Shown in pieces: positions 50,901 to 53,900 of a DNA stretch of 64,000 nucleotides. The position numbers were made by a program, and so were the translations under genes. This DNA comes from Microvelia longipes. Taxonomy: Eukaryota; Arthropoda; Insecta; Hemiptera; Veliidae. The notes beneath the pieces are model-generated. The model saw only the letters and a list, made by a program, of their open reading frames with translations, was not told where the DNA came from and searched no databases. The DNA lies in assembly GCA_018340805.1 (NCBI GenBank), contig JACMZG010000008.1, positions 80,146,807 through 80,210,806 of the forward strand, written 5' to 3'. Position 1 is the first letter of the stretch; every line of letters starts with the position of its first letter.

Positions 50901-53900
50901 AAAATGAATAGTTTAGTTTAGTTTTTTAGGTTTTATGTTCAGTTCAAACACACTACTTTTTCCTCTATACCCATGGTCTAAGTTAGGAAAAGCAATAATC
51001 ATACCAATAATATTTCCTACAATATTACTTTATTTGTTAAGATAACAGGAAGTGGACGAGGCTTGGGACGAAATCTAGCTTTGAAATTGGCAAGATTAGG
51101 AGCTCACATAGCTTGTGTTGATATAAATACAGCTAACAACGAGGAAACAGTCAAACTTATCAAACAGGAAGGGGGCAAAGCTAAGGCTTACACTGTGAAT
51201 GTAGCTAAGAGTAATCAGGTGAGATATTATTACTACTTCAATGATGCATGGCTTGCTGTATATAGTCCTGCAGGCTTACACTGTGAATGTAGCTAAGAGT
51301 AATCAGGTGAGATATATTACTACTTCAATGATGCATGGCTTGCTGTATTTAGTCCTGCAGGCTTACACTGTGAATGTAGCTAAGAGTAATCAGGTGAGAT
51401 ATTATTACTACTTCAATGATGTATGGCTTGCTGTATTTAGTCTTGCAGGCTTACACTGTGAATGTAGCTAAGAGTAATCAGGTGAGATATTATTACTACT
51501 TCAATGATGCATGTCATGCTGTATTTAGTCCTGCAGGCTTACACTGTGAATGTAGCTAAGAGTAATCAGGTGAGATATTATTACTACTTCAAAGATGCAT
51601 GGCTTGCTGTACTTAGTCCTGCAGGCTTACCCTGTGAATGTAGCTAAGAGTAATCAGGTGAGATATTATAACTACTTCAATGAAGCATGGAATGCTGTAT
51701 TTAGTCCTGCAGGCTTACACTGTGAATGTAGCTAAGAGTAGTCAGGTGAGATATTATTACTACTTCAAAGAAGCATGGCTTGCTGTATTTAGTCCTGCAG
51801 GCTTACCCTGTGAATGTAGCTAAGAGTAATCAGGTGAGATATTATTACTACTTCAATGATGCATGCCTTGCTGTATTTAGTCCTGCAGGCTTACCCTGTG
51901 AATGTAGCTAAGAGTAGTCAGGTGAGATATTATTACTACTTCAAAGATGCATGGCTTGCTGTATTTAGTCCTGCAGGCTTACCCTGTGAATGTAGCTAAG
52001 AGTAATCAGGTGAGATATTATAACTACTTCAATGATGTATGGCTTGCTGTATTTAGTCCTGCAGGCTTACCCTGTGAATGTAGCTAAGAGTAATCAGGTG
52101 AGATATTATTACTACTTCAATGATGCATGGCTTGCTGTATTTAGTCCAGCAGGCTTACCCTGTGAATGTAGCTAAGAGTAATCAGGTGAGATATTATTAC
52201 TACTTCAAAGATGCATGGCTTGCTGTATTTAGTCCTGCAGGCTTACCCTGTGAATGTAGCTAAGAGTAATCAGGTGAGATATTATAACTACTTCATGATG
52301 TATGGCTTGCTGTATTTAGTCTGCAGGCTTACCCTGTGAATGTAGCTAAGAGTAATCAGGTGTGATATTATTACTACTTCAATGATGTATGGCTTGCTGT
52401 ATTTAGTCCTGCAGGCTTACACTGTGAATGTAGCTAAGAGTAATCAGGTGAGATATTATTACTTCTTCAGTGATACATAGATTGCTGTATTTTGTCCTGC
52501 AATTATTCAAGCTATATCAATCTTTCTGCATTATTTATGAGGCAGATTGAAGGTCATTTTCCATTCATTTCCACATTCCATATGGAGGAAAATAGTAATA
52601 AGGCTATATCTTTTACGAGTGTAATTATTTTTTATCTTTGTGAATAAATGCCAATGTAAATAATATGGTTTATCTTTATCGGTTTATTTATACTTGTTAA
52701 ATATGGTGTGAAAAAATAGTTCAAATTAGTGAAAAAGTCCACATTAGATTTTCTGTACTTACTTTAACTACTTTTGACTCGCTTTGCTTGTCCTCAAAAT
52801 AAAAAAAAAATAAATTGCAAGTCGACCTGGACTCTGTTTGTATGCCCTTAGCCAATGTTAACATTTGTTTTGTTCACAGCGATCACCCAACAAGGCATTA
52901 AACTTACGTGAAGCAGCTTTAATTTTATGACAAATAATCCAGATATACTTAGTATACTTACTTATCAATAATGATAAATAAGTTTGGAGAACTATTTGGA
53001 GGTTTGTAACTCCAAATAGCTTTGGATGCACTTTTACCAAAGTAAGGCCATAGATATATTGACGAAATTTTTCAACTCCAAACACGACTGTTAACATTTC
53101 TTTCTCAATTTAAGCATACCTAGTCTGATTGTCAGTCAGAGCTCTTGAAGAAAAAGCTACTGGTTGATTATCTTGAAGAAGGACGGCTCCTAATCCCGTT
53201 AAGCTAGCATCAACTGATAATGATAACGACTCGTTTGGATTAAAATACTTTAGAACAGGAGCACTTAGAACTTTTTGTTTCAACTCCTCATATATTTTAT
53301 TAGCATTTGAGTCCCAATCAAACGGAAAACCATTTTTTTTAAATATCCATCTCTAAGGGATTTTGATACATCAGAATTATCAGTAAATTTAGAGACATAA
53401 TTGATCAATCCTAACAGAACTCAAGCCGGCTTGAGTCTGCTACAAGCCGTGGCCTAAGAAACCGGCCAGGAAGAATTAGACTCATCTCACCGGCACTAAT
53501 GATGATCGTTATGGTCGAAAACTGGCTTTGTATATTCAATTATATCGTTGTGGAAAGACAAATGCTGTTTATTTATTAGAATATTCCACATCTCAATAAT
53601 TTTCGGATTAATCATCTTGGAAGGTTATGACTCCTGGGACCCCCTCTAATATTTGAGAAATTATTCTATGAAAGATTTCAGGGGCAAAATTCAGCCCAAA
53701 AGATAATCGTTTAAATTTAAACCTGTCGAAGGGCGTTTGAAAAGTAGATAATTTGGAACTTTCTGAATTTAGAAAAAGTAGCCAAAATTCCGACAACGCG
53801 TCAAATTTATTAAATATAACAGCATTTTTCATTTTTGAGGACAGTTCTTTTAACGTAGGAATTTGAAAATGAGACCTTTTTATTGCCCTATTTAGGGGTC

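Follow-up and report, generated by a model that had tools for sequence, protein, structure and literature searches.

A minisatellite crosses the end of exon 2 of SDR-B, a gene in a 64,000-nucleotide stretch of Microvelia longipes DNA (contig JACMZG010000008.1; the whole stretch is hereafter the window), and copies both a piece of the exon and the start of the intron behind it. Fifteen head-to-tail units (i.e. 14 extra ones), each made of 33 nt of exon and 53-55 nt of intron, fill positions 51186-52502. A second array of the same unit is present in the paralogue SDR-C, through which the structure is larger than first noted. We regard it as probable that the array is a minisatellite of the type called a 'mirage', which arose by duplication across the exon/intron boundary, expansion and exchange between SDR-B and SDR-C. 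To judge from its sequence, the SDR-B array is most likely a tolerated repeat with poor acceptor signals.

Structure of the array in SDR-B

Tandem Repeats Finder (TRF) describes the array with a period of 88, 15.0 copies, 95% match and a score of 2349, which rules out a chance repeat. The exon piece is 33 nt long and without a stop in 15/15 units. The intron piece measures 55 nt in 13 units, 54 nt in one and 53 nt in one. Each extra exon copy is preceded by CAG (14/14), and GT follows the exon copy in all 15 units; the donor is GTGAGA in 14 of them and GTGTGA in unit 14. The encoded peptide is AY(T/P)VNVAKS(N/S)Q, in four variants found six times, seven times, once and once (AYPVNVAKSSQ being one of the two singletons). 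The original prediction, made from the letters alone, had described this anatomy correctly (the end of exon 2 plus the start of its intron, repeated about 15 times), with the refinement that the intron piece varies from 53 to 55 nt. It was also right that every extra unit has an AG before it, a GT after it, an open frame and no stop, that the units encode the peptide given above, and that SDR-A has a single copy of the exon piece.

Features of a mirage are present in SDR-B: the repeat lies across the exon/intron boundary of a gene, the splice signals are copied in its units (AG in the 14 extra units, GT in all 15), and the interior is homogenised with a divergent edge, the intron copy of the last unit differing at 7/55 positions and the first unit carrying one change only.

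The border between exons 2 and 3 lies directly after AYTVNV, which aligns to AYVVDCS of 17beta-HSD13. The alignment thus bears out the part of the prediction that placed the insertion after AYTVNV of the SDR fold; the other part, which makes this segment beta-strand 3 next to the pocket for adenine, accords with the general layout of the SDR fold.

Origin of the unit and the second array

The array starts in the exon with GCTAAG/GCTTAC (the slash marks the junction) and ends in the intron with TCCTGCA/ATTATT, and the commonest internal junction is TCCTGCAG/GCTTAC. On the right side of the junction TCCTGC/AGGCTTAC stands the exon's own AAGGCTTAC and on its left the TCCTGCA of the last unit, with an overlap of 1 nt. 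The acceptor AG of the units corresponds to the AG in the AAG codon of the exon itself, and these junctions suggest that the duplication carried it there. The layout is in frame because the AAG fills a complete codon and the 33 nt are divisible by three. Among simulated duplications across this boundary, 3.3% placed an AG in frame at the junction and 85% produced some in-frame, stop-free exon running from an AG to a GT. These simulations lead us to reject a separate coincidence of GT, AG and frame in each of the 14 units, in favour of one event followed by copying: the 14 in-frame mini-exons would go back to a single duplication that brought the AAG and the donor, both of which were copied during expansion.

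We propose that, in one gene of a small SDR16C-like cluster, a segment running from the exonic AAG codon with its AG, through the exon 2 donor, to about 53 nt of the intron was duplicated in tandem. Unequal exchange or replication slippage would have brought SDR-B to 15 units and SDR-C to about 75, with transfer or homogenisation of the unit between these two paralogues. Each SDR-B unit would then be an in-frame mini-exon by inheritance.

A search with one 88-nt unit across the 664.6 Mb genome, in which counts are lower bounds, gave at least 92 matches, all on contig C1361: the array in the window, SDR-A and a large minus-strand array. The latter (C1361:80290053-80297716) lies 91 kb from the SDR-B array, at exon 2 of SDR-C, i.e. 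the same exon as in SDR-B, and holds about 75 units (72 complete ones, one cut by a gap of 1190 Ns and 3.4 copies past the gap). Unit number therefore differs between the paralogues, 15 against about 75, in the single assembly compared.

The majority units of SDR-B and SDR-C are identical at 87/88 positions. Their sole difference is at position 7, with C in 8/15 SDR-B units and A in 67/72 SDR-C units. Exons 3-5 of the two genes are identical at 345/388 positions, and the homologous intron start of SDR-A matches the unit at 39/45. Since separate neutral arrays should have diverged more since the gene duplication, the simplest reading of these identities is that the unit was recently transferred or homogenised between SDR-B and SDR-C.

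At the base level, the 72 complete SDR-C units contain 45 substitutions and 20 insertions, as well as 139 deletion events that together remove 220 bases. Single-base deletions make up 113 of these events, and 37 of the 139 fall in exon pieces and 102 in intron pieces; one intron base is absent from 29 units, probably as a shared variant. The 33-nt exon is kept in 40/72 complete units, and frame, GT and AG together in 36/72. Because single-base deletions prevail, the stretch looks like unpolished reads; it is probably unpolished long-read sequence and bears little weight. As a test of selection at the base level SDR-C was dropped, its changes being mostly deletions.

Splice signals and variation of the units

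According to the original prediction, splicing could include between 0 and 14 units, which would make enzymes of varying length after AYTVNV near the cofactor site. Each extra unit is formally a spliceable in-frame exon of 33 nt, as predicted; its use in splicing is unsupported, owing to competing AGs and weak branch sites, and we consider such use unlikely. The units were compared with 22 acceptors from five genes of the cluster, a set without first exons, SDR-0 exon 6 and SDR-D exon 2; as the genes are paralogous, these acceptors are not independent. Twenty donors, including that of SDR-B exon 2 itself, were read by eye, five others being omitted or not located. The real acceptors were scored with their own family left out, and the branch-site weights are ad hoc.

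Unit acceptors have matrix scores from -7.1 to 0.3 (-1.4 in 10/14), compared with a median of 4.0 for the real acceptors, and 21% of all AGs in the window reach -1.4. The nearest upstream AG is only 3-8 nt away in 14/14 extra units, whereas it is at least 13 nt away in 22/22 real acceptors of the cluster. The best branch-site match lies between 4.3 and 5.0 in 13/14 units and above 5.0 in 18/22 real acceptors. If the upstream TAG were used at unit 2, the product would read KSNQSCRLTL and then stop.

Variation among the copies bears on the same question. The SDR-B exon copies have 2/33 variable columns and no indels in 495 nt, whereas the intron copies have 18/55 variable columns and three deletions in 825 nt. 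Both exon variants alter the protein (T to P and N to S), which speaks against a ladder in use. Among the 13 internal units the difference between exon and intron (2/33 vs 11/55 variable columns) is not significant (p 0.12). Compared with the consensus, the last unit differs at 0/33 exon and 7/55 intron positions (p 0.04), one of the seven being the terminal base of the array; none of the seven stands before intron base 17, as expected for homogenisation that fades at the edge. The last exon copy may be under constraint. We reject exon-versus-intron divergence as decisive evidence, because its significance depends on the edge units, and selection is not demonstrably acting on the exon copies. 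A ladder in use is further disfavoured by the SDR-C array, in whose error-rich stretch only half of the complete units keep all features, and by the absence of any tandem repeat of 9-13 residues, as sought by script, from 56 protein matches of SDR-B, a set that does not include the species' own protein.

Several observations weigh against a tolerated repeat, and some of them favour splicing of the units. Over all 15 units the exon is less variable than the intron (Fisher p 0.004), and exon indels are absent, as opposed to three in the intron copies. Five of the 22 real acceptors score below -1.4, so the matrix score by itself is not decisive, and the branch-site match of the unit at 52327 reaches 6.6. 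Thirteen of the 14 extra donors are identical to the real one and share its score of 7.9 (unit 14 scores 1.9), and AG, GT, frame and freedom from stops are kept in every extra unit. Duplicated donors in mammalian systems often favour the donor nearest to the acceptor, a preference that would leave only the ladder or a defective product, and intron definition in insects could recognise 55-nt introns between the exon pieces. Finally, the exchange between SDR-B and SDR-C is something that we infer.

If the array is a tolerated repeat, its in-frame layout probably makes it tolerable: the frame is retained once the mini-introns are taken out, whichever downstream donor is used. Most likely, exon 2 would then join exon 3 from the first donor, with extra units included rarely or as noise. 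This layout may explain how the array has survived in a coding gene. The arrays offer a natural test of how a spliceosome deals with a donor that stands in 15 (or about 75) nearly identical tandem copies, combined with weak acceptors. They would also test whether boundary minisatellites can become exons.

Comparison with known boundary repeats

Mirages are minisatellites at exon/intron boundaries of lancelet genes, i.e. Adh3 and the globins BflGb6 and BflGb9, and also TnC; repeats of PGBD5 have been likened to them (PMC3087553, PMC3902484). Many of their units carry AG and GT, their length is unstable and their edges escape homogenisation (PMC3087553). The SDR-B array resembles them in its AG/GT-bearing units, homogenised interior and divergent edge. 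The SDR arrays differ from mirages in their insect host, in the number of units (15 in SDR-B and about 75 in SDR-C, as against 6 and 3 in BflGb6 haplotypes), in an exon part that measures exactly 11 codons, with the acceptor in register in 14/14 extra SDR-B units, and in the presence of the unit in two paralogues. Data on Adh3 and reverse transcription PCR of the globins suggest that lancelet mirages leave regular splicing undisturbed (PMC3087553), and those of Adh and TnC are reported to yield no aberrant mRNAs (PMC3902484).

The predicted length-variable enzyme is not supported, given exon copies without clear selection, protein matches without a repeat and lancelet mirages that are reported to leave splicing normal. 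A working length generator, i.e. a variable number of 11-residue inserts beside the cofactor pocket with a range evolving at minisatellite pace, seems doubtful to us. If it were true, one gene, plus its paralogue of about 75 units, would make a ladder of enzymes differing in this insert.

In human segmentally duplicated genes, internal tandem repeats at exon-intron boundaries can form new introns (PMC2812944). In both systems a minisatellite has expanded at a boundary in paralogues of recent origin; the human units average 30 bp in four copies, and most of the changes are supported by transcripts (PMC2812944). Introns have also been gained through duplicated segments with AG/G and GT, e.g. in ATP2A1, potato RdRp and fission-yeast genes (PMC3443670, PMC4974935). 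The usual model duplicates an exonic AGGT, whereas SDR-B combines an existing donor with an AG from an exonic codon, and each copy adds a mini-exon plus an intron. Another arthropod gene family, the prawn Rlec lectins, likewise varies in its count of in-frame 33-bp units: the coding repeats, 33 or 30 bp long, number 1-9, and activity is higher with more units (PMC7536079). These repeats lie wholly within one exon, have no intron piece and owe their count to DNA, not to splicing (PMC7536079). We found no insect boundary minisatellite in the literature searched; the SDR arrays would add an insect to the lancelets and human duplicated genes in which such repeats are known.

Integrity of SDR-B and SDR-C

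Coding exons 1-6 of SDR-B could be traced and are open with intact SDR motifs, so that the gene looks intact and SDR16C/17beta-HSD13-like; last exon(s), sought beyond these six, were not found. The joined protein contains TGSGRGLG and YCSTK and matches the 17beta-HSD13 structure 8g9v_A (E 4.9e-38). The TGxxxGxG and YxxxK motifs, together with homology to HSD17B13, place it among the SDR16C, 17beta-HSD11/13-like proteins. Of 1103 candidates in a protein search, 56 matched at E 1e-20 or better. The best has 49% identity, and the next named matches (40-43%) are from Myzus, Uroleucon, Sipha, Lycorma, Nezara and Diaphorina, which by themselves point to a probable hemipteran. No insert is present at the border of exons 2 and 3 in the 13 matches aligned with SDR-B.

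An alternative is that the array does damage: tandem donors would compete, retained unit introns would meet a stop, and SDR-B, and more so SDR-C, would be down-regulated or on the way to a pseudogene. Retention to donors 2-6 does run into a stop, at codon 85 if the count begins with exon 2, and unit 1 of SDR-C lacks one base, which breaks the frame as assembled. However, the SDR-B exons are open, and the missing base of SDR-C falls where single-base deletions are frequent, as in unpolished reads; damage of this kind therefore appears improbable to us. An assembly artefact, with units that mis-assembly made or multiplied, could draw on the deletion-rich SDR-C array and its gap but is most improbable: the SDR-B array, with 40 substitutions and three deletions in 15 units, is clean and has distinct variants and unique flanks on both sides, and the array is common to two loci.

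The SDR cluster and its surroundings

The features located in the window, together with SDR-B exon 6, are listed in Table 1.

Table 1. Coordinates of SDR exons and of the boundary minisatellite (positions in the window unless a contig is named).
Feature	Position	Strand	Remarks
SDR-A exon 2, without array	1428-1604	+	one copy of the exon part of the unit, 1572-1604
SDR-A exon 3	1826-1978	+	intron 2 is 221 nt
SDR-B exon 1 (first coding; 72 aa, hydrophobic stretch)	26710-26925	+	tblastn with SDR-D exon 1, 78% over 45 residues; donor GTAAGT
SDR-B exon 2 (TGSGRGLG cofactor motif)	51042-51218	+	final 33 nt are array unit 1
Exon/intron-boundary minisatellite	51186-52502	+	15 units of about 88 nt; placed at 51184-52501 from TRF and unit tables
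Unit starts, units 1-8	51186, 51274, 51361, 51449, 51537, 51625, 51713, 51801	+	
Unit starts, units 9-15	51889, 51977, 52065, 52153, 52241, 52327, 52415	+	
Unit 2, first extra in-frame mini-exon	51274-51306	+	13 more after it
Unit 14 exon copy	52327-52359	+	sole altered donor, GTGTGA; donor score 1.9 vs 7.9
Last exon copy (unit 15)	52415-52447	+	33/33 nt as in unit 1; intron copy 7/55 off consensus
SDR-B exon 3	59658-59810	+	
SDR-B exon 4 (catalytic YCSTK)	61041-61170	+	
SDR-B exon 5	62499-62622	+	ends set by eye; alternative donor possible at 62603
SDR-B exon 6	near C1361:80211492		outside the window

Elsewhere in the cluster, exon 2 of SDR-D is missing from the assembly and probably lies inside a gap of 692 Ns. 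In SDR-0 exons 2 and 3 are fused with no intron between them (C1361:80117354-80117683), and CAGGTAGAG stands at the join. Intron 2 may thus have been gained in the group of SDR-A to SDR-D or lost in SDR-0. A distant paralogue on contig C565 has its intron elsewhere (after ...SYT, as judged by eye). Long open SDR frames also occur at C505:4353240 (262 aa) and C548:572308 (254 aa), with 29 and 28% identity; they are perhaps intronless genes or genes of a bacterial symbiont. Scans of the window with Rfam (gathering threshold) and for tRNAs gave no matches.

The surroundings are rich in minisatellites, with 40 TRF rows in 244 kb (period 20-200, at least three copies; some rows overlap). Intron 1 of SDR-B contains a 54-bp minisatellite (28396-29745), to which a sequence near C1361:80214224 is related in inverted orientation. 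The same intron holds two arrays with a period of 154 bp, at 34044-35349 (8.5 copies) and 39471-41146 (11 copies), which look like mutual inverted copies and are possibly the arms of a single mobile element. In intron 4, a 55-bp minisatellite of 11 copies (61685-62339) ends 160 bp upstream of exon 5.
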